Positions 1,072 to 23,649 of a DNA stretch of 64,000 nt are shown here, piece by piece. The notes under the pieces were generated by a model that saw only the letters and a program-made list of their open reading frames with translations, had not been told where the DNA came from and ran no database searches. The stretch spans positions 62,001-126,000 of the forward strand of contig NZ_JAHKQA010000041.1 in NCBI RefSeq assembly GCF_018860705.1, in the 5' to 3' direction. The DNA is from Citreicella sp. C3M06. Lineage in GTDB: Bacteria > Pseudomonadota > Alphaproteobacteria > Rhodobacterales > Rhodobacteraceae. Within the stretch, counting starts at the first letter, position 1. The number at the start of each line of letters is the position of its first letter. A program made the position numbers and the translations under genes.

Positions 1072-2316
1072 ATGAGCAAGTCCGCAGCGCATAACGATCC
1101 AGCACCGATCATAGCCTGCACCATCAGCCGGAACGTGCAGAATTTTGACCTGCTGATCGAAGACATGGAGATGCTGCTTGGCGAAGGCTGGGGCGATCTG
1201 GGCTTTGGCGAGGCGCTTGCTTTTCTGAACCAGCCCGATGCCGAAGCGCTTGAATTCGTTGCCATGGCCATTGACGAGGAAGACGAGGATCAGCTTGGCC
1301 TGCTGTCCGAGCTGATCGGCGCCGCCAAGGCGCGCGGCGTCAAGGTGATCCTGATCGCCGAAGACGTCACCCCCGCCGCGCTGCACCAACTGCTGCGCGG
1401 GGGTGCCGACGAATTTGTCCCCTATCCGCTGCCCGAAGGCGAGCTGCGCGCCGCCGTCGAGCGGCTCGAGCGGGTGCGCGCCCCCGAAGCGCCACAACCG
1501 GGGCAGCGCGCCGGTGACAAGGTCAAGCTCAAGGGCGGCGGCGATGGCGTTCTGATTGCCACTCAGGGCATGTGCGGCGGCTGCGGCGCCACCACCTTTG
1601 CGGTCAACCTCGCGTGGGAATTGGCGAATGTGACCAAGGACAAGCCACCACGGGTCTGCCTGCTGGATTTCGGCCTGCAGTTCGGATCGATCGCCACCTA
1701 CCTTGACCTGCCCCGCCGCGAGGCGGTGATGGAACTGCTGTCCGACATCGAATCGATGGACGGGGACAGTTTTGGTCAGGCGCTGGTGACCCATGGCGAA
1801 AAGCTGCAGGTGCTGACCTCGCCGTCGGATGTCATACCCCTCGACCTGATCGGCCCCGAAGATGTGACCAAGATCCTTGGCGTGGCCCGCGAACATTTCG
1901 ATTTCGTCATCGTCGACATGCCCTCGGCCCTGACCGGCTGGACCGACACCGTGCTGACGCAATCGCAGATCTATTTCGCGCTGATCGAGCTGGACATGCG
2001 CTCGGCCCAGAACACGCTGCGGCTCAAGCGGGCGCTTCAGGCCGAGGATCTGCCGTTTGACAAGATCCGCTTTGCCGTCAATCGCGCCCCCAAGTTTACC
2101 GATCTGCAAGGCAAGAGCCGTATCAAGCGCATGTCCGAAAGCCTTGGCATCGACCTGCGGCTTCAGCTGTCGGACGGGGGTCGTCAGGTTGCCACCTCTT
2201 GCGATCATGGCGAGCCGCTTGCGACCCATGCCCCCAAGAACCCGTTGCGTAAAGACATCGCCAAGCTTGCGGCGGAACTTTACGCCATCGGCCTGTCCGC
2301 CGCACAAGCCGCCTGA
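1072..2316 (+). CDS. cpaE: Tad pilus localization ATPase-like protein CpaE/TadZ
   Basis: The protein has 414 residues. Residues about 10-135 form an atypical receiver-like domain, and residues about 155-400 form a MinD/ParA-type P-loop domain. TadZ/CpaE proteins localize the tad machine, often to a cell pole. The expected deviant Walker A (KGGxGK[ST]) is replaced by QGMCGGCGATTF at 165-176: both lysines are absent and two cysteines are present. The later ParA-like segments LLDFGLQFGS and FVIVDMPS are kept. TadZ proteins often have altered P-loops, so this fits a structural rather than catalytic ATPase. It starts with ATG 230 nt after the OmpA gene and is followed 15 nt later by cpaF. Confidence 0.9.
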   Translation: MSKSAAHNDPAPIIACTISRNVQNFDLLIEDMEMLLGEGWGDLGFGEALAFLNQPDAEALEFVAMAIDEEDEDQLGLLSELIGAAKARGVKVILIAEDVTPAALHQLLRGGADEFVPYPLPEGELRAAVERLERVRAPEAPQPGQRAGDKVKLKGGGDGVLIATQGMCGGCGATTFAVNLAWELANVTKDKPPRVCLLDFGLQFGSIATYLDLPRREAVMELLSDIESMDGDSFGQALVTHGEKLQVLTSPSDVIPLDLIGPEDVTKILGVAREHFDFVIVDMPSALTGWTDTVLTQSQIYFALIELDMRSAQNTLRLKRALQAEDLPFDKIRFAVNRAPKFTDLQGKSRIKRMSESLGIDLRLQLSDGGRQVATSCDHGEPLATHAPKNPLRKDIAKLAAELYAIGLSAAQAA

Positions 2317-2331
2317 TCAGGAGCCCGCGCC

Positions 2332-3759
2332 ATGTTCTCCCGCTACAAGAAGCCGACCGGCAAGGAAGCTCCCGCCGCGGCGGCGCCGTCTTCGGCCGCC
2401 AGCGCCGCGCCCAGCAAGCCGTCGATGCGAAAACCTCAGATCGCCGCAATCGCCGACGCCGCCCCGCAGGATCGCGAGAAGAAACGCAAGGAGCGGCTGG
2501 GCGACATCAAGCTGGAACTGCACCGGGCGCTGCTCGACAACCTGAACCTTGCGGCGATCGACGCCGCCTCCGAAAAGGATCTGCGCGAAGAGATCAGCGC
2601 CATCGTGTCGGAAAACCTGTCGGAAAAGGGCATCGTCCTGAACCGCGAGGACCGGCAGACCGTCAATCAGGAGCTGTATGACGAGGTCAAGGGTCTTGGC
2701 CCTCTCGAAACCCTGCTCAAAGACGACACGGTGTCGGATATTCTGGTCAACGGCCCGCACCAGATCTTTGTGGAACGCGGCGGCAAACTGCAGATGTCCG
2801 ACGTGGTGTTCAAGGATGAACGCCACCTGATGCGTATCATCGACAAGATCGTGTCCGCCGTGGGCCGCCGGGTCGATGAATCCAACCCCTATGTCGACGC
2901 CCGCCTTGCGGACGGCTCGCGCTTCAACGCCATGGTGCCGCCCATCGCCGTCGATGGCAGCCTTGTATCCATCCGGAAATTCAAGAAAGACAAGCTGTCG
3001 ATCGACGATCTGATCAGCTTTGGCGCCTTTACCGAGGAAATGGCGGTCTATCTTCAGGCCGCCGTGTCGACCCGCCTGAACGTCATCGTCTCGGGCGGGA
3101 CCGGGTCAGGCAAGACCACCACGCTCAACGCGCTGTCCTCGTTCATCGACGATGCCGAACGCATCCTGACCATCGAGGATACGGCGGAACTTCAGCTGCA
3201 ACAGTCCCATGTGGGACGCATGGAAAGCCGCCCCCCCAATGTCGAGGGCAAGGGCGCCGTCACCCCGCGCGACTGTCTCAAGAATGCGCTGCGGATGCGC
3301 CCTGACCGTATCATCGTCGGCGAGACGCGCGGCGAGGAAGTCATCGACATGTTGCAGGCGATGAACACCGGCCATGACGGGTCGATGACCACGATCCACG
3401 CCAACAACGCCCGCGACGGTATTTCACGCCTTGAAAACATGATTGCCATGGCCGGCATCGAAATGCCGCTCAAGGCGATGCGCAGCCAGATTTCCTCGGC
3501 TGTAAACCTGATCGTGCAGGCCAGCCGTTTGCAGGACGGCTCGCGCCGGATGACCTCGATCACCGAGATCACCGGCATGGAAGGCGACGTGATCTCGATG
3601 CAGGAGCTGTTCCGCTTTCAGCGCGTCGGCCTGACCCCCGACAACAAGATCATCGGGCATTACACCGCCACCGGCGTGCGCAGCCACTATTCTGAACGTT
3701 TCAAGATGTGGGGCTTCGATATCCCTCCGTCGATCTACGAACCCTTCCGCCCGGAGTAA
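2332..3759 (+). CDS. cpaF: Tad pilus secretion ATPase CpaF/TadA
   Basis: This 475-residue type II/IV secretion ATPase powers assembly of Flp pili from the cytoplasmic face. The first 55 residues are an Ala/Pro/Lys-rich low-complexity tail. The N-terminal domain covers about 60-230. The RecA-like motor has Walker A GGTGSGKT at 255-262, an Asp box around [12 protein letters not shown], and the Walker B/His-box region [12 protein letters not shown] followed by [17 protein letters not shown] 2332 is preceded by AGGAG in the gap after cpaE. It lies 6 nt upstream of tadB, so the genes are clearly cotranscribed. Length and motifs are normal for CpaF. Confidence 0.97.
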
Positions 3760-3765
3760 CGCCCC

Positions 3766-4731
3766 ATGTTTTCCGCAGAACTGATCATCTACGGCCTGAT
3801 CTTCCTTGGCGTGTTCGTCTTGGTCGAGGGCGTCTATCTTGTCGCTTTCGGCAAGTCGATCCGGCTCAACAGCCGGGTGAACCGCCGTCTCGAAATGATC
3901 GAGAAGACATCGAACCGCGAAGAGGTGCTTGCCAAGCTGCGCAAGGAGATGGACCAGCACCTGAAAAGCCGCGGCATTCCGCTGTATTCGCTGCTGGCCG
4001 ACCGGGCGCAGAAGGCGGCCATCGCCTTTACCCCCAACCAGCTGATCGCGATGATGGCCGGGGTCAGCGTCTTTGCCTTTTTCGGGCTGACCGTCGGCAC
4101 CGAGGCCAGCCTTCCGGTGCGCATCGTGCTCGGGCTCGCCATGGGCATCGGCGGCGTGTTCATGTGGGTCAGCAGCAAGGCCAAGAAGCGCCTCGCCCTG
4201 ATCGAGGAACAGCTGCCCGACGCGGTGGAGCTGATGGTGCGCAGCCTGCGCGTCGGCCATCCGTTCAGCTCGGCCATTTCGGTGGTGTCGCGCGAAATCA
4301 AGGACCCGCTGGCGACCGAATTCGGCGTGATCTCGGATGAATCGACCTATGGGCGCGACATTGGCGAAAGCCTCAAGCACATGGCCGAACGGCTTGATAT
4401 GCAGGATCTGCGCTTTCTGGCCGTTGCGGTGTCGATCCAGCAGCAATCGGGCGGCAACCTTGCGGAAATCCTCGACGGGCTTGCCAAGGTGATCCGCGCC
4501 CGCTTTCGCCTGTTCCGCCGCGTCAAGGCGATCACCGCCGAGGCGCAATGGTCCGGCAAGTTCCTGTCGGGCTTTCCGGTCGCCGTGCTGCTGGTGATTC
4601 AGGTCACCGACCCGCATTACTACGACGAAGTGCTCGACCACGAATGGTTCATCCCGGCCTGCTTCATCGTTGCGGTGTTTCTGGCTCTGAACCTGATGGT
4701 CATGCGCTTCCTCGTGAACATCAAGGTCTGA
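3766..4731 (+). CDS. tadB: Tad pilus inner-membrane platform protein TadB
   Basis: The protein has 321 residues. TadB and TadC form the inner-membrane platform on which the CpaF ATPase acts. Hydrophobic segments are seen near the N-terminus (about 3-25), around 90-140, and at the C-terminus (about 270-315). Between them is a GspF-type T2SSF domain, with the characteristic LPDAVELMVRSLRVGHPF around residues 149-166. It starts 6 nt after cpaF and is followed by tadC after 13 nt. The length is typical. Confidence 0.95.
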   Translation: MFSAELIIYGLIFLGVFVLVEGVYLVAFGKSIRLNSRVNRRLEMIEKTSNREEVLAKLRKEMDQHLKSRGIPLYSLLADRAQKAAIAFTPNQLIAMMAGVSVFAFFGLTVGTEASLPVRIVLGLAMGIGGVFMWVSSKAKKRLALIEEQLPDAVELMVRSLRVGHPFSSAISVVSREIKDPLATEFGVISDESTYGRDIGESLKHMAERLDMQDLRFLAVAVSIQQQSGGNLAEILDGLAKVIRARFRLFRRVKAITAEAQWSGKFLSGFPVAVLLVIQVTDPHYYDEVLDHEWFIPACFIVAVFLALNLMVMRFLVNIKV

Positions 4732-4744
4732 GAGGTCCATCCCG

Positions 4745-5716
4745 ATGCTTGACAATCTCAACGCCATGCTGACCGACATGCTTGGCCCGGCCGGGCCGCT
4801 GATGGCGGTGGCGGGGCTGGCCCTGCTGCTGATCCTTGCCGCGATCCCGCTGATGCTGGGCAGCAAGCCAGACCCGATGGACAAGCTGGCCAAATCCGGC
4901 CGCGCCCGCATCGACGCCGAGACCAAGGCGATCCTGCGCGACACCCGCCGCAACGCCAAGCTGAACAAATACGCCCAGTATCTGGAACCCAAAAGCGCCG
5001 AAGAGTTGGGGCAGGCCCGGCTCAAGCTGCTTCAGGCGGGCTATCGCACCCGTGACGCGGTGCGCCTGTTCTACCTTGCGCAGATGGTGCTGGGCATTGG
5101 CCTGCTGGCGGCAGGCACGGTGTATTACTTCATGGTCATCGACGGACCGACGGCAACGATGCAGCAAAAGCTGATGTACATCCTGTTGCCCGGCGCCGCT
5201 GGCTACTTGGCGCCGAAATACTGGGTGCAAAAGCGCATCGAAGAGCGCCGCAAGCAGATCGAGGAAGGCTTCCCCGACGCGCTGGACATGATGCTGGTCT
5301 GCGTCGAAGCCGGTCAGGCACTGGATCAGGCCATCGTACGGGTGGCGGCCGAATTGCACGCCTCCTACCCCGCGCTTGCCGATGAATTCGAGATCATCAG
5401 CCACGAAATGAAGGCGGGCAAGGACAAGGCGGCAGTGCTTAACGACATGGGCGAGCGCTGCGGCGTGCAGGACGTTGCCTCTTTTGTCACCGTTCTCAAT
5501 CAGGCGGCGAGCTTTGGCACCTCGATTGCCGATGCGCTGCGGGTCTACGCCTCGGAAATGCGTGACAAAAGGGTCATGCGCGCCGAAGAAAAGGCCAACA
5601 AACTGCCGACAAAGATGACCCTCACCACTATGATGTTCACGGTGCCGCCGTTGCTGATCATCCTTGTTGGTCCGTCCATCGTCGGCATCACGCAACTTGG
5701 CGCCATCTCCCCGTAA
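4745..5716 (+). CDS. tadC: Tad pilus inner-membrane platform protein TadC
   Basis: This 323-residue paralog of TadB completes the platform. It has an N-terminal membrane segment (about 15-40), a membrane pair in the middle (about 115-160) and a C-terminal helix (about 292-318). The T2SSF domain contains FPDALDMMLVCVEAGQALDQ around residues 176-195. TadB and TadC are distinguished by gene order and by the longer N-terminal cytoplasmic segment of TadC. The ORF has a clean ATG and is followed 24 nt later by tadD. Confidence 0.95.
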   Translation: MLDNLNAMLTDMLGPAGPLMAVAGLALLLILAAIPLMLGSKPDPMDKLAKSGRARIDAETKAILRDTRRNAKLNKYAQYLEPKSAEELGQARLKLLQAGYRTRDAVRLFYLAQMVLGIGLLAAGTVYYFMVIDGPTATMQQKLMYILLPGAAGYLAPKYWVQKRIEERRKQIEEGFPDALDMMLVCVEAGQALDQAIVRVAAELHASYPALADEFEIISHEMKAGKDKAAVLNDMGERCGVQDVASFVTVLNQAASFGTSIADALRVYASEMRDKRVMRAEEKANKLPTKMTLTTMMFTVPPLLIILVGPSIVGITQLGAISP

Positions 5717-5740
5717 CCGGGCCCCGAACACAGGACCATC

Positions 5741-6301
5741 ATGCGCATCGGCCTTGCCGCCTGCCTGACCACGCTCTTTCTGGCCGCCTGTGGAGACACC
5801 GGCGGCCATGCCATCGAGGACGGGCAGGTCTATGCCCCATCGCTTGACCCCAAGGGCCAGTCGGTCGACGGGCTGCTGGTCGGCCACCGCCTGATGGCCG
5901 CGGGCGAACACGAACTGGCGCTCGAGGCCTATCTGCGCGCCGCCGGACAAGACGGGCTTGACGGCGAGGTGCTGACCTCGCTCGGCTCGGCGAACCTCGC
6001 GCTCGGGCGGCTTGGTCAGGCGGAACATTTGCTGCGCCAAGCGATCAAACTCGCACCGGACTGGCCCGAGGCATGGAACAACCTCGGCGTGGTGCTGATG
6101 GAAGCGGGCAAGGTGTCCGAAGCGTCCGAAGTGTTCCGTCGCGCCTATGCGCTGGACAATGGCCAAAGCGACGCAATCCGCGACAATCTGCGCTTGGCGC
6201 TCGCAAAACTGGAAAATCCGGGCTATTCTGCTGCCGAGCAAGAGGATTTTCAGCTGATCCGCGAGGGAACGAGCACCTACCTCATCCAGCGGCACGACTG
6301 A
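5741..6301 (+). CDS. tadD: TPR lipoprotein TadD
   Basis: The protein has 186 residues. A lipoprotein signal ends in LAAC with Cys17. Residues about 45-150 are tetratricopeptide repeats, for example LGSANLALGRLGQAEHLLRQ and WNNLGVVLMEAGKVSEASEV. TadD is an outer-membrane-associated pilotin-like lipoprotein that helps the secretin assemble; this function is known from Actinobacillus tad loci. The position directly after tadC is canonical. A second TPR lipoprotein follows. Confidence 0.92.
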   Translation: MRIGLAACLTTLFLAACGDTGGHAIEDGQVYAPSLDPKGQSVDGLLVGHRLMAAGEHELALEAYLRAAGQDGLDGEVLTSLGSANLALGRLGQAEHLLRQAIKLAPDWPEAWNNLGVVLMEAGKVSEASEVFRRAYALDNGQSDAIRDNLRLALAKLENPGYSAAEQEDFQLIREGTSTYLIQRHD

Positions 6302-6368
6302 ACCGACAATAAGATGGCCGGCAATGATCGGCCGCGTGACGAGGCAAGAGCAGTAAAGGACGCACCGA

Positions 6369-7229
6369 ATGCGCCATTCCATTCTCGTGGCCCTCTGCAT
6401 TGCGGGGGCCTTCGGTCTTTCGGCCTGTGACAGGAAAATCGACGCCGACGCGGTGAACCGCGAGTTCACCGACGTCAATGTCATCGACGGCACCGGGCTG
6501 AACGATGTGATGCTCAGGGCTTCCGATCCCACGGCGGCAGTGACCTATTTCGCCCGCGCCGGAGAGCTCGAGCCGGGACGCATCGATCTGATGCGCGGCC
6601 TTGCCACATCGCTGGTGCGCGCAAAACGCTCCCGCGAGGCGGCGATCGCCTGGGCCGAGGTGGTGGCGCATGCGGAGTCCAGCGACGAAGACAAGGTGCA
6701 ACTGGCCGACGCGCTGATCCGCGACAACCAGTGGGACAAGGCGGAACAGGTGCTGAGTGCGATCCCGCCGACCCATGAATCCTACATGCGCTACCGGCTC
6801 GAAGCGATGGTGGCCGACAGCAACAAGCAATGGGACAAAGCCGACAGCTTTTACGAGATCGCCGCCGGGCTGACCACCCAGCCAGCATCGGTGCTGAACA
6901 ACTGGGGCTATTCCAAGCTCTCGCGCGGCGATGCGGCCGGGGCGGAAAAGCTGTTCTACGAAACCCTGCGCCACGATAGCACCCTGTTCACCGCCAAGAA
7001 CAACCTTGTGCTGGCGCGCGGTGCGCAGGGCAATTACAGCCTGCCGGTGCTGGACATGACCCAGACCGAGCGCGCCGATCTGACTTACACGCTGGCGCTT
7101 TCGGCGATCAAGCGCGGCGATGTGAAGATCGGTAAGGGCCTGCTGGAAGACGCCATCGAGACCCATCCGCAGCATTTCGAGGCAGCATCCACCGCGCTGG
7201 CTGCTCTCGAGAATGGCAGTGCAAGCTGA
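6369..7229 (+). CDS. Second TPR lipoprotein of the tad locus
   Basis: The protein has 286 residues. The signal peptide ends in LSAC with Cys20. The rest is helical, with degenerate TPR-like repeats (about 55-280) such as VLNNWGYSKLSRGDAAGAEK. It is about 100 residues longer than the preceding TadD and is probably a diverged homolog, a common arrangement in alphaproteobacterial tad loci. Its 3' end overlaps the likely start of the prepilin peptidase gene by 17 nt, which suggests coupled translation. A role in secretin or pilus assembly at the outer membrane is inference. Confidence 0.85.
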   Translation: MRHSILVALCIAGAFGLSACDRKIDADAVNREFTDVNVIDGTGLNDVMLRASDPTAAVTYFARAGELEPGRIDLMRGLATSLVRAKRSREAAIAWAEVVAHAESSDEDKVQLADALIRDNQWDKAEQVLSAIPPTHESYMRYRLEAMVADSNKQWDKADSFYEIAAGLTTQPASVLNNWGYSKLSRGDAAGAEKLFYETLRHDSTLFTAKNNLVLARGAQGNYSLPVLDMTQTERADLTYTLALSAIKRGDVKIGKGLLEDAIETHPQHFEAASTALAALENGSAS

Positions 7230-7731
7230 TCCGATGCTGTCGATATCCGCCATGGCCGCAAGCTGGTTCCTGCCCCTCGTGCTGCCGATCTGCCTGTATG
7301 TCTGCTACACCGACATGCGCGAGCTGCGCATCACCAACGCGGCGAACATTGCCCTGCTGATGGTCTTTGTCGTGGTCGGGTTGATGGTGCTGCCGCTTGA
7401 TGCCTACCTGTGGCGCTACACCCATCTTGCGGTGGCGCTGGTGGTCGGCATGGCATTGAACGCTGGCGGCGTGATGGGCGCGGGCGATGCCAAGTTCATC
7501 GCTGCGGCCGCGCCGTTCGTGCACCTCGCGGACCTGCGGTTCCTGATGGCGCTGCTGGCGGCAAGCCTGATCGGCGCCTTCGTCACCCACAGGCTGATCA
7601 AATTCTCACCCCTGCGCCGCCTTGCGCCAGACTGGAAGAGCTGGACCAGCGGCAAGCGCTTTCCCATGGGCATGGCGCTTAGCGCGGCGCTGACCGCCTA
7701 TCTGATCTTTGGCTATCGCTACGGCAGCTGA
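7213..7731 (+). CDS. cpaA: Prepilin peptidase CpaA/TadV
   Basis: This 172-residue A24-family aspartic protease is embedded in the inner membrane and removes the leader of Flp prepilin. The two catalytic aspartates lie in YTD (about residues 33-35) and in the signature GAGDAKF (about residues 93-99). Hydrophobic segments cover nearly the whole protein. The ATG used here overlaps the previous gene by 17 nt. An in-frame ATG at 7234 (MLSIS) is an alternative start that avoids the overlap. It is the last gene of the tad run in this window. Confidence 0.92.
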   Translation: MAVQADPMLSISAMAASWFLPLVLPICLYVCYTDMRELRITNAANIALLMVFVVVGLMVLPLDAYLWRYTHLAVALVVGMALNAGGVMGAGDAKFIAAAAPFVHLADLRFLMALLAASLIGAFVTHRLIKFSPLRRLAPDWKSWTSGKRFPMGMALSAALTAYLIFGYRYGS

Positions 7732-8397: not shown

Positions 8398-9177
8398 TCA
8401 GACGTGCCGGTTCAGCAGCATCTTCTTGATCTCGGCAATGGATTTCGCCGGGTTCAGACCTTTGGGGCAGGTCTTGGTGCAGTTCATGATGGTGTGGCAG
8501 CGATAAAGCTTGAAGGGGTCTTCAAGCGCATCCAGACGCTCGGGCGTGGCTTCATCGCGGCTGTCGATGATCCAGCGATAGGCGTGCAGCAGCGCGGCCG
8601 GGCCAAGATAGCGGTCAGAGTTCCACCAGTAGCTCGGGCAGGCGGTCGAGCAGGAGGCGCACATCACGCATTCATACAGGCCGTCCAGCTTCTTGCGATC
8701 TTCGATGGACTGCTTCCATTCCTTTTCAGGACGGTTGGTCTTGGTTTCGAGCCACGGCATGATCGACGCGTGCTGCGCGTAGAACAGGTTGAGGTCGGGG
8801 ATAAGATCCTTGACCACCGGCATGTGCGGCAGCGGGTAGATCTTGACGTCGCCCTTGACCTCGTCGAGCCCGTAGATACAGGCCAGCGTGTTGATGCCGC
8901 CGATGTTCATCGCGCAGGATCCGCAAATGCCCTCGCGGCAGGACCGGCGGAAGGTCAGGGTCGGATCGACCTCGTTCTTGATCTTGATCAGCGCGTCCAG
9001 AACCATCGGGCCGCATTTGTCCATATCAAGGTGATAGGTGTCGATCCGGGGGTTCTCGCCATCCTCGGGGTTCCAGCGATAGATCTTGAACGCCCGGACA
9101 TTGGTCGCGCCGGTCGGCTTGGGCCAGGTCTTGCCGGTGCGGATCTTCGAGTTCTTTGGCAGGGTAAATTGAACCAT
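8398..9177 (-). CDS. sdhB: Succinate dehydrogenase iron-sulfur subunit
   Basis: This 259-residue subunit of complex II carries electrons from the SdhA flavin to ubiquinone through three Fe-S clusters. The 2Fe-2S ligands are visible as C80, C85, C88 and C100 ([13 protein letters not shown]...LAC). The 4Fe-4S and 3Fe-4S region contains C170, C173, C176 and C180 ([13 protein letters not shown]), then [15 protein letters not shown]. It is the last gene of the sdh operon, separated from sdhA by two small lipoprotein genes. Length and motifs are standard for alphaproteobacteria. Confidence 0.98.
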
Positions 9178-9186
9178 GGGTCTCTC

Positions 9187-9501
9187 CTATCGGATGAGCG
9201 CCGGCAGCCCCTCGGCGGCCAGGCAGGTCAGTGTCTCGGGCTTCGAGACGATCACGGTGACGATCTCGACGCTCGATTGCGTGGGACCGGTGACAGATTC
9301 AGAGGCCAGCGCGTAGATCTGCTGCGCGTTGGCATTGTCGATGACGCAGTTCAGTGCCGGTTCGACCGGCACGCTGGGATAGCGTTGCAGCACCACCTTG
9401 TTTACCGTCGAGCGCGCGGCGTTGCGGGCGATCTGATCTTGGGTCGCGGCGTCACAGGACGCCAGAACCGGCAGCAGGGCGAGAAAGACAAGCTTGCGCA
9501 A
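9187..9501 (-). CDS. Small lipoprotein A inside the sdh operon (TTG start)
   Basis: The protein has 104 residues when started at TTG 9501, which has TAGGAG about 10 nt upstream. The resulting signal peptide (RKLVFLALLPVLASC) ends in lipobox LASC with Cys16. The mature part aligns by eye with the next upstream protein: NAARS...PALNCVIDNANAQQIYALA against NAAGP...KALACLFEHAQPGQIQALA, with a second shared Cys near the C-terminus. The two are therefore tandem paralogs. Function unknown. The position between sdhA and sdhB suggests coexpression with complex II. Confidence 0.75.
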   Translation of the reverse strand: MRKLVFLALLPVLASCDAATQDQIARNAARSTVNKVVLQRYPSVPVEPALNCVIDNANAQQIYALASESVTGPTQSSVEIVTVIVSKPETLTCLAAEGLPALIR

Positions 9502-9512
9502 ACCGTGGGCTC

Positions 9513-9866
9513 CTATCCGAACAGCCAATAGATCGGACCCCCGCGCAGGCAAAAGCGGATGTCCTCGTCATAAAGGATATCGAGCACGATATCGTCGTTA
9601 AGCTCGGGCTGCCCCAGAGCAGAATTGCGGGCCAGCGCCTGAATCTGCCCCGGCTGGGCGTGTTCGAACAGGCAGGCCAGCGCCTTGTCGCTCGGCACGC
9701 CGGGCGCCAGCCGGGTCAGGATCGGACCGGCGGCGTTGGCGGCCACCTGTTCGGTGAACCCCAGCGGCTTGGGCGAGAGCACCTGAAGCTGCCCGGCCTT
9801 GCGCGGCACCATGTCGGCGCAGCCCATGACGGGCAGCGCCAGAAGCAAAGCGATCAGCGCTCGCAA
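9513..9866 (-). CDS. Small lipoprotein B inside the sdh operon (TTG start)
   Basis: The protein has 117 residues. TTG 9866 is preferred because a perfect AGGAGG lies about 7 nt upstream and it places the hydrophobic signal at the N-terminus, ending in lipobox VMGC. A nearby ATG at 9872 is out of frame. The mature domain is paralogous to lipoprotein A downstream (shared NAA, C-x6-7-A-x2-QI-x-ALA and a C-terminal Cys). The two genes are separated by 11 nt. Being in the sdh operon, it may serve the envelope or complex II assembly, but no function is known to me. Confidence 0.75.
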   Translation of the reverse strand: MRALIALLLALPVMGCADMVPRKAGQLQVLSPKPLGFTEQVAANAAGPILTRLAPGVPSDKALACLFEHAQPGQIQALARNSALGQPELNDDIVLDILYDEDIRFCLRGGPIYWLFG

Positions 9867-9975
9867 AGCATGTCCTCCTCGGCGGGCACGCATGGCACGC
9901 AGCGCGACACAGGTGCAGACCTGTGCGCGTCACGTGCCGCAAGCGCCGACCATGAAAGGAGGCAGGCCAGACGCA

Positions 9976-11781
9976 TCAGAACGTCCGGGCCTTCGGTGCG
10001 ATCTTGGCAAGGCTGATGCCGCCGACCTCTTCGGTGGTCAGTGGATCGACGATCACCGGCCGGTGCGTCAGCGTGACCTCGGTGCCGTTGACGCGGCTGA
10101 TGGTGTGCACGCGCCAGTTCTCGTCGTCGCGGGTCGGATAATCCTCGTGGGCATGCGCCCCGCGGCTTTCCTTGCGAGCCTCGGCGCCGACGATGGTGGC
10201 AAGCGCGTTGGGCATCAGGTTGGTCAGCTCAAGCGTTTCCATCAGGTCCGAGTTCCAGATCAGCGTGTGATCGGTGACCTTGATATCCGACATTTTGCCA
10301 GCGACGGCGGTCATCTTTTCGACACCTTCGATCAGGGTCTTGTCGGTGCGGAACACGGCGGCATCCGATTGCATGGTGCGCTGCATCTCAAGGCGCAGCT
10401 CGGCGGTCGGCGTGTCACCATCGGCATAGCGCAGCCCGTCGAACCGGTCGAACGCCTTGTCGACGGACGGCTGGTTCAGCGTGTGCGGCGATGCTTCACG
10501 ATCGACAACCTCACCGGCGCGGATTGCGGCAGCGCGGCCAAAGACCACGAGGTCGATCAGCGAGTTCGAGCCAAGGCGGTTGGCCCCGTGCACCGACGCA
10601 CAGCCTGCCTCGCCCACGGCCATCAGGCCCGGCACGATGGCATTGGGGTTGTCGGCGGTCGGGTTCAGCACTTCGCCCCAGTAGTTGGTGGGAATGCCGC
10701 CCATGTTGTAATGCACCGTCGGCAGAACCGGGATCGGTTCCTTGGTCACATCGACACCGGCAAAGATCCTGGCCGATTCCGAAATGCCAGGCAGCCGTTC
10801 GGCCAGCGCCTCGGGCGGCAGGTGCGACAGATTGAGGTGGATGTGATCGCCATGCTCGCCCACACCGCGCCCTTCGCGGATTTCCATGGTCATCGAGCGG
10901 CTGACATAGTCGCGCGGGGCCAGATCCTTGTAGGTCGGGGCGTAGCGTTCCATGAACCGCTCGCCTTCGGAGTTGGTGAGGTAACCGCCCTCGCCCCGTG
11001 CGCCTTCGGTGATCAGGCAGCCCGAACCGTAGATGCCGGTGGGGTGGAACTGCACGAATTCCATGTCCTGCAGTGCAAGCCCTGCGCGCGCCACCATGCC
11101 GCCACCGTCGCCGGTGCAGGTGTGGGCCGAGGTCGCCGAGAAATAGGCCCGGCCATAGCCGCCGGTCGCCAGAACCACGGTCTTGGCGCGGAAGATGTGG
11201 AAGGTGCCGTCTTCGAGCCTCCAGCAGACGACGCCCTGACAGACACCATCATCGCTCATCACCAGATCGATGGCGAAATATTCGATGTAGAATTCGGCAT
11301 TGTGCTTGAGCGACTGGCCATACAGCGTGTGCAGGATGGCGTGGCCGGTGCGGTCGGCGGCGGCGCAGGTGCGCTGCACGGGCGGGCCTTCGCCGAATTC
11401 GGTGGTGTGGCCACCAAACGGGCGCTGGTAAATCTTGCCCTCGTCGGTGCGGCTGAACGGAACGCCGTAATGTTCCAGCTCGTACACGGCGGCGGGCGCC
11501 GAGCGCGCGAGGTATTCCATCGCGTCGGTGTCGCCCAGCCAATCCGAGCCCTTGACGGTGTCGTACATGTGCCACTGCCAGTTGTCGGGGCCCATGTTGG
11601 ACAGCGACGCGGCGATGCCACCCTGCGCCGCCACGGTGTGCGAGCGGGTCGGGAAGACCTTGGTCACGCAAGCGGTGCGCAGGCCCTGCTCGGCCATGCC
11701 GAGGGTGGCGCGCAGACCGGCGCCGCCGGCCCCCACGACCACGACGTCAAACGTATGCGTCTCGTATTCGTATGCTGCCAT
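9976..11781 (-). CDS. sdhA: Succinate dehydrogenase flavoprotein subunit
   Basis: This 601-residue subunit oxidizes succinate to fumarate with covalently bound FAD. The N-terminal Rossmann motif [15 protein letters not shown] is at about 14-28. The flavinylation segment [10 protein letters not shown] holds the FAD-linked His. The substrate-site region [20 protein letters not shown] and the C-terminal THRPV segment are present. Length is typical. It follows sdhD by 18 nt in the order sdhC-sdhD-sdhA, and is followed by the two small lipoproteins and sdhB. Confidence 0.98.
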
Positions 11782-11799
11782 TTTTCCGGTCTTTCTGTC

Positions 11800-12171
11800 T
11801 CAGAGCGCGATCTTGACGAGCGCGAACAGCCCGCAGGCGATCATCACGTAGGAAAAGCCCGTATAGGCCATGATCAGCAGCTTGCGGGTGGTGCCTTGGG
11901 TGTAATCCTCGATCATCACGCGGCCACCCTTGTTGAAGTGCAGCATGCCGACAATCAGCACCAGCGCGGTCAGGATCGCCGGGAACGGGCGCGACATGGT
12001 CGCCAGCGACGCCTCGTAGCCAGAGCCCAGCGCGTTGCCGAAGATGTAGATCCAGGTCGGGATCATGCAGGCCAGCGCAACCGAGCTGACGATCATGAAC
12101 CAGTGATGTTCGGCGCCCGAATGGGCAGAGCCCTTGCCTACGGCGCGCTTGCGGTCGGTCTGGTAGTGCAT
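11800..12171 (-). CDS. sdhD: Succinate dehydrogenase membrane anchor subunit
   Basis: The protein has 123 residues with three membrane helices. Together with SdhC it anchors SdhAB and binds heme b and ubiquinone. The segment MLHFNKGGRVMIEDY matches the family's heme-ligand region (H...EDY). The gap to sdhC is 15 nt and to sdhA 18 nt, so the genes form one operon. Sequence conservation in SdhD is low, so the call leans on position, hydropathy and this motif. Confidence 0.93.
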   Translation of the reverse strand: MHYQTDRKRAVGKGSAHSGAEHHWFMIVSSVALACMIPTWIYIFGNALGSGYEASLATMSRPFPAILTALVLIVGMLHFNKGGRVMIEDYTQGTTRKLLIMAYTGFSYVMIACGLFALVKIAL

Positions 12172-12186
12172 GTGTCTATGCCTCCC

Positions 12187-12582
12187 TCAGAGCCAGATGA
12201 CGATGACGGTCAGAACGGTCAGCACGACAGAGCCGTAGACGCAGATCCAACCCAGCTTTTCGGCGGTCTCGATTTCCAGCCCCTTGCCGGCGTCAAAGAT
12301 CAGGTGACGCAGCCCGCCAAGGTAGTGATACCAGACGGCCCAGAGCATGAAGAACCAGAACAGATCGAAGATGAAGCTGGTCAGCCACCATTCGACGGTT
12401 TCAAAGGCCTCCGGCCCCGAGGCAAGCGCCAGCAGCCAGACGATCAGAAAGAAGACCGCCGCCATCATCGCGTTGCCGGTGATGCGGATCATCACCGACG
12501 TCACAGCGGTGAGCTGTAGCCGGTAATACTGCACAAACATGAAGGGGGAGAGCGGGCGCTCGATTCTTTTCGCTTCGGCCAT
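12187..12582 (-). CDS. sdhC: Succinate dehydrogenase cytochrome b556 subunit
   Basis: The protein has 131 residues with three membrane helices. The N-terminal signature RPLSPFMFVQYYR replaces the usual RPLSPH (His to Phe), followed by SVMIRITG, the quinone-site region. The heme-ligand His is in GLRHLIFDAGKG. It is the first gene of the sdh operon. The 228-nt upstream region holds the tandem GTGATCAC sites. Confidence 0.95.
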   Translation of the reverse strand: MAEAKRIERPLSPFMFVQYYRLQLTAVTSVMIRITGNAMMAAVFFLIVWLLALASGPEAFETVEWWLTSFIFDLFWFFMLWAVWYHYLGGLRHLIFDAGKGLEIETAEKLGWICVYGSVVLTVLTVIVIWL

Positions 12583-12700
12583 GGCTAGTCCTTTCGGTTC
12601 CCTTGGACGGGTTCTAGCGGGTTTCCTTGACCCGTGTCACTGTCTCGCAGTTGCAGCAGGCATGTTTTTTGGTCGCAGTTCGGAAAAAATATCGAAGTTT

Positions 12701-12732
12701 GTGATCACGGCGTAAAAACTGTGATCACAAAC
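12701..12732. promoter_or_regulatory. Tandem GTGATCAC palindromes upstream of sdhC
   Basis: Two copies of the perfect palindrome GTGATCAC lie at 12701-12708 and 12721-12728, with centres 20 bp apart (about two DNA turns). The second extends to CTGTGATCACAAAC and the first is preceded by GTTT. They lie 119-146 bp upstream of the sdhC start. The same two-site arrangement recurs upstream of sucC (17,841-17,875). This is most simply a pair of dimer-binding operators for one transcription factor. The factor is not identified here. Confidence 0.65.
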
Positions 12733-12810
12733 CTCTCCTGTTAGCGCCCGCATTGTAATATCAGGGTTTTTGTCAGGTATTCTGAGCGGCCGCGCACCCG
12801 AGTCGATGGC

Positions 12811-13014
12811 TCAGAGCGGGAAGCCCAGCTTGCGCAATGCGCGCGCACCGCTGCTCTGGCGCGTCGGATCAGCAGATTGCAGATCATGGTGGATCTGGCG
12901 CATCAGAGCGCTGAATTCGCGGCGATGGACCAGCGCGCTGATGATATCGGGAACATCCGCAGTGGGCATTTCAAGCACATCGCGCGCGTCTTGCGGCAGG
13001 GCTGTGACAGACAT
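12811..13014 (-). CDS. Small conserved hypothetical protein (67 aa)
   Basis: The short protein starts at an ATG with CAGGAG about 8 nt upstream. It is mostly helical and polar (MSVTALPQDARDVLEM at the start, RALRKLGFPL at the end) with no membrane segment. It is transcribed in the same direction as mch upstream of it, after a 99-nt gap. I do not recognise the family. Good start signals and codon usage like the neighbouring genes make it likely to be real. Confidence 0.6.
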   Translation of the reverse strand: MSVTALPQDARDVLEMPTADVPDIISALVHRREFSALMRQIHHDLQSADPTRQSSGARALRKLGFPL

Positions 13015-17684: not shown

Positions 17685-17704
17685 TCCGTTTCGAATGACT
17701 GACA

Positions 17705-17736
17705 AGCCGGGGTGCGCCAGCGCGCCCCGGCTTTTT
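17705..17736 (+). terminator. Rho-independent terminator of mdh
   Basis: AGCCGGGGTGCG (17705-17716) pairs with CGCGCCCCGGCT (17721-17732) with one T-G wobble and a 4-nt loop, followed by TTTTT. Confidence 0.92.
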
Positions 17737-17842
17737 CGTACCTGTCGTTCGCCATCGAACTGACGTCGAAATGGGCAGCGGATGGCGCAATGAGTGATTC
17801 GCGGCCGGGTGCGCTAACATCGGCAACAGCTCGCCGACACTT

Positions 17843-17875
17843 GTGATCACACGTCCAAAACCTGTGATCACAAAC
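17843..17875. promoter_or_regulatory. Tandem GTGATCAC palindromes upstream of sucC
   Basis: GTGATCAC occurs at 17843-17850 and 17864-17871, with centres 21 bp apart, 115-143 bp before the sucC start. The pair matches the one upstream of sdhC, including the leading TTGTGATCAC, an A-rich spacer and the trailing TGTGATCACAAAC. This is the only other place in the window where I see the pair. A shared operator for TCA-cycle genes is the simplest reading. The rest of the 300-nt mdh-sucC gap holds the mdh terminator and presumably the suc promoter. Confidence 0.65.
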
Positions 17876-17985
17876 CGCAGAAAACCCTCGCAATTGGTGC
17901 TTTCTAACGATATTTCCACTGACGGGAGCGGGGAACCCTGCGTATACCCGGCAACGAAATCGCAGCAAGACGGGAAGAGTCTTCC

Positions 17986-19179
17986 ATGAACATCCACGAA
18001 TATCAGGCGAAAGCGCTTCTGCGCGACTATGGCTGCCCGGTCTCGGACGGCCGTGTCGTGCTGAGTGCGAACGAAGCCAAGGCGGCGGCTGGCGAACTGG
18101 ACGGACCTCTGTGGGTCGTAAAGGCCCAGATTCACGCGGGTGGCCGCGGCAAGGGCAGCTTCAAGGAAGCCGGCGCTGGCGAAAAGGGCGGTGTCCGTCT
18201 GGCCAAGTCGGTCGAAGAGGCCGCCGAGGAAGCCAATCGCATGCTCGGCCACACGTTGGTCACGCACCAGACCGGCCCGGCGGGCAAGCAGGTCAACCGC
18301 ATCTACATCGAAGACGGCTCGGACATCACCTCCGAATTCTACCTCGCGCTGCTGGTCGATCGCGTCAGCTCGCGGGTGTCGATCGTCTGCTCGACCGAAG
18401 GCGGCATGGACATCGAGGAAGTCGCGGACAAGACCCCCGAGAAGATCCTCAGCTTCGAGGTCGACCCGGCCATCGGCTATCAGGGCTACCACGGTCGCCG
18501 CGTCGCGTTCGAGCTGGGCCTGACCGGCAAGGCCGTGCGCCAGTGCACCACCCTGATCGGCAACCTGTATCGCATGTTCGTCGACAAGGACATGGAGATG
18601 CTGGAAATCAACCCGCTGATCCTGACCACCGACGGCGACCTGAAGTGCCTCGACTGCAAGGCCGGCTTCGATTCCAACGCGCTCTACCGTCATTCCGACA
18701 TCATGGGCCTGCGCGACGAATCCGAGGAAGACCCCAAGGAGCTCGCCGCCAGCCAGCACGATCTGAACTACATCGCGCTTGACGGCGAAATCGGCTGCAT
18801 GGTGAACGGCGCGGGCCTTGCCATGGCGACGATGGACATCATCAAGCTGTATGGCGCAGAGCCTGCCAACTTCCTCGACGTTGGCGGCGGCGCCACCAAG
18901 GAAAAGGTGACCGAGGCGTTCAAGATCATCACCTCTGACCCGAACGTCAAAGGCATCCTCGTGAACATCTTCGGCGGCATCATGCGCTGCGACGTCATCG
19001 CCGAAGGCGTGATCGCCGCGGTGAAAGAGGTCGGTCTCAAGGTTCCGCTGGTTGTGCGTCTTGAAGGCACCAACGTCGATCTGGGCAAGAAGATCATCAA
19101 CGAGTCCGGCCTGGACGTGATCGCGGCGGACAACCTGTCCGACGGCGCCGAGAAGATCGTGAAAGCCGTGAAGGGCTGA
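17986..19179 (+). CDS. sucC: Succinyl-CoA synthetase beta subunit (ADP-forming)
   Basis: The 397-residue ATP-grasp subunit pairs with SucD to make succinate and ATP/GTP from succinyl-CoA. The N-terminus [19 protein letters not shown] is canonical. The nucleotide-binding region has [15 protein letters not shown], and the C-terminal CoA-ligase half has [15 protein letters not shown]. It is the first gene of the suc/odh operon. SucD is separated from it by an unrelated small gene. Confidence 0.98.
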
Positions 19180-19183
19180 ACGG

Positions 19184-19606
19184 ATGGCACTGATCGCGAA
19201 AATCGACCCTCCGCTCACCGTCGCTGACGGGCGCGCGCAGATCCATGCGCGCCCCTACAAGCAGGCGGCGGTGGCCGAGGGGGATGAAATTTTCGTCTGG
19301 ACGTCAGAGACGTCCGGCGGGCACGGTCTGGCCGCCTTCGGGACCATCGCCGCGGCCCGGATCGAAAGCTTTCCGAACAAGACAGGATCGGGCGAGCACA
19401 AGGAACTGGTGCTCGATGTTCAGATCGTCAGCGGCGCGCCTGCGCGGTCGCTGACACTGGCGCAGCTTGCCGTCCATCGCGACAGCGACGAGGCGGGCCC
19501 CGAAGCCCCTGTCGGCAAGACCCTTTACACACACGCACTCAACAAGATTACCTCGATAGAGTCCGACGATGCGGACTTTGTCAGGTCGCACTTCGAGGAA
19601 CATTGA
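19184..19606 (+). CDS. Hypothetical EVE/PUA-like protein between sucC and sucD
   Basis: The 140-residue protein starts 4 nt after sucC and ends 1 nt before the sucD start, so it is an integral part of the operon. The segment [20 protein letters not shown] followed by [12 protein letters not shown] resembles the opening of EVE/PUA-like beta-barrel domains, which bind modified bases or nucleotides in other proteins. The C-terminus ([12 protein letters not shown]...DADFVRSHF) is helical. The fold guess is inference; a fold-level comparison would settle it. No enzymatic motif is visible. Confidence 0.7.
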
Positions 19607-19607
19607 A

Positions 19608-20492
19608 ATGTCCGTACTCGTAGACAAGAATACCAAAGTCATCTGCCAGGGCTTCACCGGCTCGCAGGGGACTTTCCACTCGGAACAGGCCATCGCCTAT
19701 GGCACCCGGATGGTCGGCGGCGTGACCCCCGGCAAGGGCGGTCAGGAACACCTCGGCCTGCCGGTCTTCAACTCGGTCCACGAAGCCGTGGCCAAGACCG
19801 AAGCCAACGCTTCGGTGATCTATGTGCCGCCGCCCTTCGCGGCCGACTCGATCCTTGAAGCCATCGATGCCAAGATCCCGCTGATCGTCTGCATCACCGA
19901 GGGCATTCCCGTTCTCGACATGATGCGCGTCAAGCGCACGCTGGTGAACAGCTCGTCGCGCCTGATCGGGCCGAACTGCCCCGGCGTCATCACCCCCGAT
20001 GAATGCAAGATCGGCATCATGCCCGGCCACATCCACATGCGCGGCAAGGTCGGCGTCGTGTCCCGCTCGGGCACGCTGACCTATGAGGCGGTCAAGCAGA
20101 CCACCGATCTGGGTCTGGGCCAGTCGACGGCTGTCGGCATCGGCGGCGACCCCATCAAGGGCACCGAGCACATCGACGTGCTGAACATGTTCCTTGATGA
20201 CCCAGAAACCGAATCCATCATCATGATCGGTGAAATCGGCGGTTCCGCCGAAGAAGAGGCCGCCGAGTTCATCGCCGAGCAGAAGAAAAAGGGCCGCTGG
20301 AAGCCGATCGCCGGTTTCATCGCGGGCCGCACGGCCCCTCCGGGCCGCCGCATGGGCCATGCGGGCGCGATCGTCGCCGGCGGCAAGGGCGATGCGGAAT
20401 CCAAGATCGAGGCGATGAAATCCGCCGGGATCGTGGTTGCCGACAGCCCCGCAACGCTGGGCGAAGCCGTTGTTAAGGCGATGGAAGCTTAA
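19608..20492 (+). CDS. sucD: Succinyl-CoA synthetase alpha subunit
   Basis: The 294-residue subunit binds CoA and carries the phospho-His. The N-terminus [20 protein letters not shown] is typical, the CoA-binding Rossmann domain follows, and the active-site His is in [12 protein letters not shown]. It starts 1 nt after the preceding small gene stop, which argues for translational coupling. Confidence 0.98.
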
Positions 20493-20541
20493 GCAGTGCT
20501 TCCTTGCGGCGGTCGCTTGCGTCCGCCGCGGTCAGGATTAT

Positions 20542-20574
20542 GTGGAAGGGCAAGGGAAGATCTTGCCCTTCCAC
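20542..20574 (+). promoter_or_regulatory. Perfect 13-bp hairpin between sucD and sucA
   Basis: GTGGAAGGGCAAG (20542-20554) and CTTGCCCTTCCAC (20562-20574) form a perfect stem with a 7-nt loop. No T-run follows, so it is unlikely to be a simple terminator. It may be an mRNA processing or stability element, or a protein-binding site, in the 187-nt sucD-sucA gap. Confidence 0.6.
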
Positions 20575-20679
20575 GAAGAAGGCAGAGCATCGCGACAGGG
20601 GCCTTGTGCAAAAGGGTCTCTCTCCCGTTGCTAAACGGCCAGTCCGCGATGGGCCCCGGCCAAACCAAGGAAACGTGCG

Positions 20680-23649
20680 ATGACGGATCAAAGCCCGAAC
20701 GACCAGTTTCACGCCTCGAGCTTCCTGCAGGGTGTGAATGCCGAATACCTCGAACAGATGTATGCGCGGTACGCCAACGACCCCGCAGCCGTCGATGAGG
20801 CATGGGCGGATTTCTTCAAGGCTCTGGGCGATGACGAGACCAACGTGAAGGCCGAGGCGGCAGGCGCGTCGTGGCAGCGCGCCGACTGGCCGCCCGCACC
20901 GACCGACGACATCACCGCCGCGCTGACCGGCGAATGGCCGGTGATGCCCATCGCCGAAGCCAAGGGCGCCGGCAAGAAGATCGCCGACAAGGCCGCCGCC
21001 ACCGGGGTCAAGGTTTCCGACGACCAGATCAAGCGCGCCGTGCTGGATTCGATCCGGGCGCTGATGATCATTCGCGCCCACCGCATCCGGGGCCACCTTG
21101 CTGCCGATCTCGATCCGCTGGGCCTGCACGGCCGCGAGCCGCACCCCGAGCTTGACCCAAAGGCCTATGGTTTCACCGAGGCCGACATGGACCGGCCGAT
21201 CTTCATCGACAACGTGCTGGGCCTTCAGGTCGCGTCGATGCGCGAGATCATGGGCGTGCTCAAGCGCACCTATTGCGGCACCTTCGCGCTGCAATACATG
21301 CATATTTCCGACCCTGAGCAATCGGCTTGGCTGAAAGAACGGATCGAAGGCTACGGTCGCGAGATCAAGTTCACCCGCGAGGGGCGCCGCGCCATTCTCA
21401 ACAAGCTGGTCGAGGCCGAGGGCTTTGAAAAGTTCCTGCATGTCAAGTACATGGGCACCAAGCGCTTTGGCCTTGATGGCGGGGAATCCCTGATCCCGGC
21501 GATGGAGCAGATCATCAAGCGCGGCGGCAACCTTGGCGTGACCGAGATCGTCATGGGCATGCCGCACCGGGGCCGTCTGTCGGTTCTGGCCAACGTGCTG
21601 AACAAGCCCTACCGCGCGATTTTCAACGAATTTCAGGGCGGCAGCTTCAAACCGGACGATGTGGATGGCTCGGGCGATGTGAAATATCACCTCGGCGCTT
21701 CGTCGGACCGTGAATTCGATGGTCACCCGGTGCACCTGTCGCTGACCGCCAACCCCAGCCACCTCGAGGCGGTGAACCCGGTGGTTCTGGGCAAGGTCCG
21801 CGCCAAGCAGGACCAGCTTGGCGATGTCGAGCGCACCAAGGTTCTGCCGATCCTGCTGCACGGCGATGCGGCCTTTGCCGGTCAGGGCGTGGTGGCGGAA
21901 TGCTTCGCGCTGTCGGGCCTGCGCGGTCACCGCACCGGCGGCACCATCCATATCGTGGTGAACAACCAGATCGGCTTCACCACCGCGCCGCATTTCTCGC
22001 GCTCCTCGCCCTACCCCACCGACAACGCGCTGGTGGTCGAGGCACCGATCTTCCACGTCAACGGCGATGACCCCGAAGCGGTTGTGCACGCAGCCAAGGT
22101 CGCGACCGAGTATCGCCAGAAGTTCGGCAACGACGTGGTCATCGACATCTTCTGCTACCGTCGTTTTGGTCACAACGAGGGCGACGAGCCCATGTTCACC
22201 AACCCGCTCATGTACAAGAAGATCAAGCAGCAAAAGACCACGCTGACGCTGTACACTGACCGCCTCGTCAAGGACGGCCTCATCCCCGAGGGCGAGATCG
22301 AGGATATGAAGGCGCAGTTCCAAGCCCACCTGAACAGCGAATTCGAGGCTGGCAAGACCTACAAGCCCAACAAGGCCGACTGGCTCGATGGGCGCTGGTC
22401 GCATCTCGACCGGCAGAAGGAAGGCAACTACCAGCGCGGCGAAACCGCGATCAAGCCCGAGACCATGGCGGAAATCGGCAAGGGCCTGACCACCCCGCCC
22501 GAAGGCTTCCCGCTGCACAAGACCATCGGCCGCTTCCTTGATGCGCGCTCCAAGATGTTCGAAACCGGACAGGGCTTTGACTGGGCCACCGGCGAAGCGC
22601 TGGCCTTTGGCTCGCTGCTGACCGAAGGTTACCCGGTGCGCCTGTCCGGTCAGGACAGCACCCGTGGCACTTTCTCGCAGCGCCATTCCGGGCTGGTGAA
22701 TCAGGACACCGAAGAGCGTTACTACCCGCTCAACAATATCCGCGAGGGTCAGGCCCGCTACGAGGTGATCGACTCGGCGCTGTCGGAATACGCGGTGTCT
22801 GGGTTTGAATATGGCTATTCGCTGGCCGAACCCAACGCGCTGACCCTGTGGGAAGCGCAGTTCGGTGATTTCGCCAATGGCGCGCAGATCATGTTCGACC
22901 AGTTCATCAGCTCGGGCGAATCCAAATGGCTGCGGATGTCCGGGCTTGTCTGCCTGCTGCCGCACGGCTTCGAAGGTCAGGGCCCGGAACACAGCTCGGC
23001 CCGTCTGGAGCGCTTCCTGCAGCAATGCGGGCAGGACAACTGGATCGTGGCGAACTGCACGACCCCGGCGAACTATTTCCACATCCTGCGCCGCCAGCTG
23101 CACCGCAGCTACCGCAAGCCGCTGATCCTGATGACGCCGAAATCGCTGCTGCGTCACAAGCTCGCGGTGTCCAAGGCCGAGGATTTCGTCACCGGGTCGA
23201 GCTTCCACCGCGTTCTCTGGGACGATGCGGAAAAGGGCAGCTCGCAGACCAAGCTCAAGCCCAATGCCGAGATCAAGCGCGTGGTGATGTGTTCTGGCAA
23301 AGTCTATTACGACCTGCTCGAAGAGCGCGATGCGCGCGGCATTGATGATGTCTACCTGCTGCGGGTCGAGCAATTCTACCCGTTCCCGGCGCTCAGCCTC
23401 GTCAAGGAGCTGGAACGCTTCTCCGGCGCCGAGATGATCTGGTGTCAGGAAGAGCCCAAGAACCAGGGCGCATGGACCTTCATCGAACCGAACATCGAAT
23501 GGGTGCTGGGCCGCATCGACGCAACCCACAAGCGGCCGCGTTACGTGGGCCGCGCCACCTCGGCTTCGCCCGCAACGGGTCTGGCCAGCCAGCACAAGGC
23601 ACAACAACAGGCGCTCGTCGACGAAGCGCTGACCATCGAAGGGAACTGA
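20680..23649 (+). CDS. sucA: 2-oxoglutarate dehydrogenase E1 component
   Basis: The 989-residue thiamine-diphosphate enzyme decarboxylates 2-oxoglutarate and passes the succinyl group to E2. The N-terminal [19 protein letters not shown] segment, which docks to other subunits, is present. The ThDP-binding region has [13 protein letters not shown] and later NNQIGFTT. The transketolase pyrimidine-domain segments [16 protein letters not shown] and [16 protein letters not shown] follow. Length and motifs are typical. It is followed 4 nt later by sucB. Confidence 0.98.

Follow-up and report, generated by a model that had tools for sequence, protein, structure and literature searches.

Two short palindromes stand side by side upstream of the sdh operon, and the question is which protein reads them, and to what effect. 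The window, that is, the whole stretch of 64,000 nucleotides analysed here (G000:C49:62001-126000), is part of a 5.01 Mb assembly. An initial annotation had described two perfect palindromes 20 bp apart before the operon and a similar arrangement before sucC, and had ascribed them to an unrecognised regulator of the TCA cycle.

Paired palindromes before sdhC and sucC

The arrangement before sdhC is as described. It reads GTGATCAC-N12-GTGATCAC and spans 12701-12728, the site proximal to sdhC lying at 12701..12708 and the distal one at 12721..12728 (neither is assigned a strand); both palindromes are perfect and their centres are 20 bp apart. The pair is situated 118 bp from sdhC (start at 12582, minus strand), in the gap between this gene and a 67-codon ORF of the same strand that ends at 12811. 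The target operon sdhCDAB (8398..12582), named by NCBIfam, comprises sdhC (12187-12582), sdhD (11800-12171), sdhA (9976-11781) and sdhB (8398-9177), all on the minus strand; mdh was also named by NCBIfam in the window. No sigma-70 consensus promoter was found at 12560-12830. Adjoining the operon, positions 1072-7731 of the window hold genes that match MinD/CpaE-like and TadA-family ATPases, TPR proteins and, by a weak match, a prepilin peptidase, which suggests a Tad-type pilus cluster beside sdh.

The recurrence before sucC proved to be real, with a spacer of N13 instead of N12. This second pair, GTGATCAC-N13-GTGATCAC, occupies 17843-17871 (distal site 17843..17850, proximal site 17864..17871, again without strand), with centres 21 bp apart, and is separated by 114 bp from the start codon of sucC (17986). 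The putative target genes, all on the plus strand and named by NCBIfam, are sucC (17986-19179), a sucD frame (19569-20492) and sucA (20680-23649), together covering 17986..23649.

Both promoter regions (12561-12830 and 17691-18000) were searched for the sites of other regulators. There was no match to a CRP site (TGTGA-N6-TCACA), in agreement with the earlier judgement that the palindromes do not form a CRP dimer site, none resembling an FNR site, and none to the CceR site [A/G/T]GTT-N6-8-AAC[A/C/T], as given in an excerpt of PMC4344238.

Single GTGATCAC sites are unremarkable and common, with 209 copies in the whole assembly; the window holds four against 1.01 expected, a number that 2 of 100 shuffles reach. 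Exact pairs are another matter: with spacers of N10-16, those before sdhC and sucC are the only ones in the 5.0 Mb assembly, for about 0.06 expected by chance (a uniform estimate from the 209 sites). TTGTGATCAC occurs 15 times in this genome, four times within the two pairs and once before akgR, the regulatory gene discussed below, and the N10-16 search of the assembly found no pair of the sdhC/sucC kind at the remaining ten. One relaxed pair (TGATCAC...GTGATCA) lies on contig C2, and a lone TTTTGTGATCAC at G000:C36:64269-64278 (region L036, site at 1503) stands about 120 bp before the start of a protein that resembles ClpB by eye.

AkgR and the conservation of the pair

The regulator does have a name. 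In excerpts of two papers, from which both are cited throughout, GTGATCAC is among the reported binding sites of AkgR, which is termed an activator (PMC6365646), and the GntR-family protein RSP_0981 of R. sphaeroides is a predicted regulator of sdh, sucCD and sucAB, the last encoding 2-oxoglutarate dehydrogenase (PMC4344238). As far as these excerpts go, AkgR, its motif and its sdh and suc targets are already in print for R. sphaeroides, so that the annotation's view of an unnamed regulator falls.

An akgR orthologue was located in the window's genome by protein match to R. sphaeroides AkgR (G000:C8:30978-31625, minus strand). Its product is 75% identical to that protein, carries GntR (PF00392) and FCD (PF07729) domains, both above cut-off, and has its closest named relatives in Salipiger species (best 91%), so that the window probably comes from a Salipiger-like bacterium of the Rhodobacter/Roseobacter family. 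There are 39 FCD matches in this genome, none of them on the window's contig. Residues 137, 141, 184 and 206 of AkgR (numbering of the window's genome) are invariantly Asn, His, His and Asp in the alignment, at positions where we take the FCD-domain metal site to consist of Asp, His, His and His, and the pocket for the metal or ligand may thus be altered in AkgR.

R. sphaeroides 2.4.1 is represented by genome G051, in which the three ChIP motifs printed in the excerpt of PMC4344238 fall inside the printed peaks. It has pairs before both sdhC and sucC, each with N13. At E <= 1e-30 it contains a single match to AkgR, situated 4.7 kb beyond the start of sdhC. Its position next to sdh, and its being the only match at this threshold, indicate that this is probably RSP_0981. 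The window's genome thus presents the GTGATCAC operator, the orthologue in the same genome and sites before both sdh and suc that mark the AkgR regulon. We consider it very probable that the pair, a candidate AkgR operator, is indeed one.

A comparison across the Rhodobacter/Roseobacter family was carried out on 96 of 100 genomes in which an sdhC match was found (G019, G021, G061 and G098 gave none); the set consists of the upstream DNA of 94 genomes, the window and R. sphaeroides. Allowing at most one mismatch per site and up to 450 bp upstream, the sdhC pair was present in 80 of the 96, with a centre spacing of 21 bp in 70 genomes, 20 bp in nine and 19 bp in one. Exact pairs with a centre-to-centre distance of 18-24 bp were found within the same 450 bp in 72 of the 96. 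When all 256 palindromes of 8 bp were treated alike in the 96 genomes, one other was paired, in a single genome, and the remaining 254 in none, which excludes chance for the sdhC pair. A control with the reversed pattern was set aside, as this pattern includes CTAG, a tetranucleotide that occurs at low frequency in many bacteria. For sucC, covered by 58 of the 96 stretches, 57 had the pair upstream, spaced at 21 bp in 54 and at 20 bp in three. Most pairs lie more than 100 bp from the start codon. The annotation had proposed a scan of relatives near sdhC and sucC, with lack of conservation as the refuting outcome; the pair is kept at both genes. The annotation was right that a regulator of the TCA cycle is involved.

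The 13-bp spacers are all different, both at sdhC (70 of 70) and at sucC (54 of 54), with a median pairwise identity of 0.31 and 0.46, respectively. Hence, the spacing is kept more than the spacer sequence.

Eighteen further regions were fetched, 17 of them chosen for a listed pair. Twelve of these pairs stand before sucC (two, in G058 and G090, fall in stretches already examined), four are elsewhere, and one, in G042, is upstream of a fumarase-C-like frame. This last region (L257, G042:C16:226294-230294) contains GTGATCAC-N13-GTGATCAC, with sites at 2000 and 2021, upstream of a frame that matches Lyase_1 and FumaraseC_C. It is a possible extra AkgR target, in one genome, and would add a step of the TCA cycle.

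Beyond the family, an N12-14 pair was found in 17 of 187 genomes of the class, many with spacers that are G+C-rich by eye, and seven such regions gave no match to sdhC, sucC, mdh, sucD or sucA. One region from another alphaproteobacterial family (L274, G246:C189:1-3000) carries three of these sites at intervals of about 20 bp, at 992, 1013 and, as TGATCAC, 973, directly before a frame 27% identical to AkgR; multi-site arrays therefore occur with other GntR-like proteins.

We then compared the distribution of the pair with that of akgR. Orthologues were defined as the upper group of matches, with at least 188 bits, the lower group reaching at most 161 bits; the one exception to this gap is in G027, where the gene is divided between contigs and a fragment of it was matched. 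An orthologue was present in 88 of the 100 family genomes sampled, which extends AkgR well beyond R. sphaeroides, from which it was known. For the sdhC pair, 79 of the 96 genomes had both, seven akgR only, one the pair only and nine neither (Fisher P = 8e-8, shared ancestry being ignored). For the sucC pair the corresponding numbers in 58 genomes were 57, 0, 0 and 1, a weak association (P = 0.017, shared ancestry again ignored). The seven genomes with akgR and no sdhC pair are G007, G012, G030, G033, G085, G087 and G090; four of them (G033, G085, G087 and G090) do carry the sucC pair, and the contig begins about 500 bp (G007) and 355 bp (G030) upstream of sdhC in two others. The single genome with the sdhC pair and no akgR found, G096, is 77% complete. 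None of the 187 class genomes outside the family had an AkgR match at E <= 1e-48, a threshold that more diverged orthologues would escape.

Phased A/T content and the lone site before akgR

In the aligned sequences, the A/T content downstream of the pair oscillates between about 20% and 90%, repeating roughly every 10 bp. In the window, the stretches concerned are 12640..12700 (minus strand), between the pair and sdhC, and 17872..17935 (plus strand), downstream of the sucC pair; in both cases the phasing is a family-level signal. A column-permutation test of this periodicity yielded very low values on the upstream side of the pair too; it was too lenient, and was therefore replaced by a phase test in which the anchors were jittered. 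For a period of 10.3 bp, R values were 0.89 (70 sdhC sequences) and 0.86 (54 sucC sequences) with the phase counted from the pair, against 0.14 and 0.22 when counted from the start codon; the maxima with jittered anchors were 0.31 and 0.34. In subsets whose members share less than 50% identity, R was 0.86 (44 sdhC sequences) and 0.82 (27 sucC sequences). The A/T phase is tied to the pair, not to the start codon. Just upstream of the pair, R was 0.44 for sdhC and 0.27 for sucC, and further upstream 0.26 and 0.15; as the value of 0.44 slightly exceeds the jitter maximum of 0.31, the phasing is not strictly confined to the downstream side.

As calculated from the phase test, the distance of the A/T maxima from the proximal dyad is some 4.5-5 bp plus a whole number of turns. 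The maximum inside the spacer is out of the 10.3-bp phase. If the FCD dimer sits on the DNA as FadR does, the A/T-rich minor grooves would face the side of the dimer. For sucC, the profile suggests that transcription starts around position 112 and that the ribosome site is at 125-128. Relative to such a start, the dyads would fall close to -108 and -87, and the A/T maxima at about -42 to -82, a region in which the C-terminal domains of the RNA polymerase alpha subunits can bind. The fit of sdhC to such a promoter geometry is less clear.

The akgR gene itself presents a different layout. In the window's genome, one GTGATCAC lies 8 bp before its start codon. The exact site precedes akgR in 78 of 80 named loci, at most 55 bp from the start of the match (L093 and L105 lack it), and is near the start in 28 of the 30 family akgR loci fetched (not in L073 and L076). 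A scan of the named loci, not limited to akgR, for TTGAC followed by the site returned 78 stretches, of which 58 have a distance of 18 bp and 73 one of 17-19 bp; in 52 of the 78, the site is followed at 8-10 bp by the first ATG. If TTGAC is taken as the -35 element, the site would overlap the expected -10, and the akgR message may be leaderless. In R. sphaeroides (L080, 16300-16450), TTGAC is present and the 150 bp upstream of akgR contain no GTGATCAC within two mismatches, so that autoregulation would not be universal.

Proposed activation by AkgR and comparison with known systems

Taken as a whole, we think it highly probable that the sdhC and sucC pairs are AkgR operators from which two dimers would activate sdh and suc from upstream, a single dimer repressing akgR. 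One dimer would occupy each palindrome, and the two would share one DNA face at a distance of about two helical turns, some 80-110 bp upstream of the presumed transcription start. They would reach RNA polymerase over a stretch of DNA that turns its A/T-rich minor grooves to that same face, either by contact with the alpha subunits or through DNA curvature; the chances of this particular step are slightly less than even. At akgR, one dimer on the lone site, over the putative -10, would cause autorepression. A more specific proposal is put forward tentatively: a fixed-geometry array in which two dimers two turns apart are followed by four to five A/T-rich grooves, phased at 10.3 bp to the operator and not to the gene; these grooves would dock alpha subunits or bend the DNA, bringing a regulator 80-110 bp away within reach of the polymerase, AkgR being also an autorepressor through the lone -10 site of a possibly leaderless gene.

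Activation of sdh and suc, and not repression, is the likely effect of AkgR. That AkgR binds instead as a repressor of these operons, the A/T tracts being an unrelated promoter feature, is unlikely: the single akgR site does look repressive, but AkgR is called an activator in the excerpt of PMC6365646, most of the pairs are more than 100 bp from the start codon, and the A/T phase follows the pair and not the start codon. Quite improbable is a different GntR/FCD protein as reader of the pair, GTGATCAC then being common to several members of the family. PS417_07240 of Pseudomonas simiae, 32% identical to AkgR, is a proposed user of the same palindrome (PMC6365646, excerpt), the L274 array precedes another GntR-like frame, and the window's genome encodes 39 FCD proteins. 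Against this, the pair co-occurs with the AkgR orthologue group, the lone site stands before akgR, and the excerpts of PMC6365646 and PMC4344238 assign the motif and the targets to AkgR. That the pair is a site for CRP, FNR or CceR, or arose by chance, is extremely unlikely: TGTGA/TCACA resembles CRP half-sites and sdh of R. sphaeroides is a predicted CceR target (PMC4344238, excerpt), but neither promoter region has a matching motif and the 256-palindrome control excludes chance.

AkgR is now named as the most likely binder before sdhC and sucC, and with so conserved a layout, activation of central metabolism from far upstream can be put directly to the test. Among the papers listed in a literature search, which did not include a 2015 mBio paper that reportedly treats CceR and AkgR, no description was met of the two-turn (21-bp) spacing, of the phased A/T tracts or of the contrast at the akgR site.

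Among known systems, AkgR of R. sphaeroides (RSP_0981) is the closest, with the same motif, the same targets, an orthologous regulator and pairs before both sdhC and sucC. Two differences are that akgR adjoins sdh in R. sphaeroides and is on another contig in the window's genome, and that the site before akgR is present in the latter and absent in the former. PS417_07240 of P. simiae, a GntR-like regulator of deoxyribonate genes, shares the palindrome GTGATCAC, but its operator, in the excerpt of PMC6365646, is a single conserved palindrome that occupies -47 to -40 relative to the start codon of catabolic genes, unlike the fixed pair before TCA genes. Among solved structures, the best match of AkgR is the GntR/FCD protein McbR (PDB 4p9f; profile positions 18-209 of 216, 83.9 bits), a distant similarity that concerns the protein sequence and not the operator.
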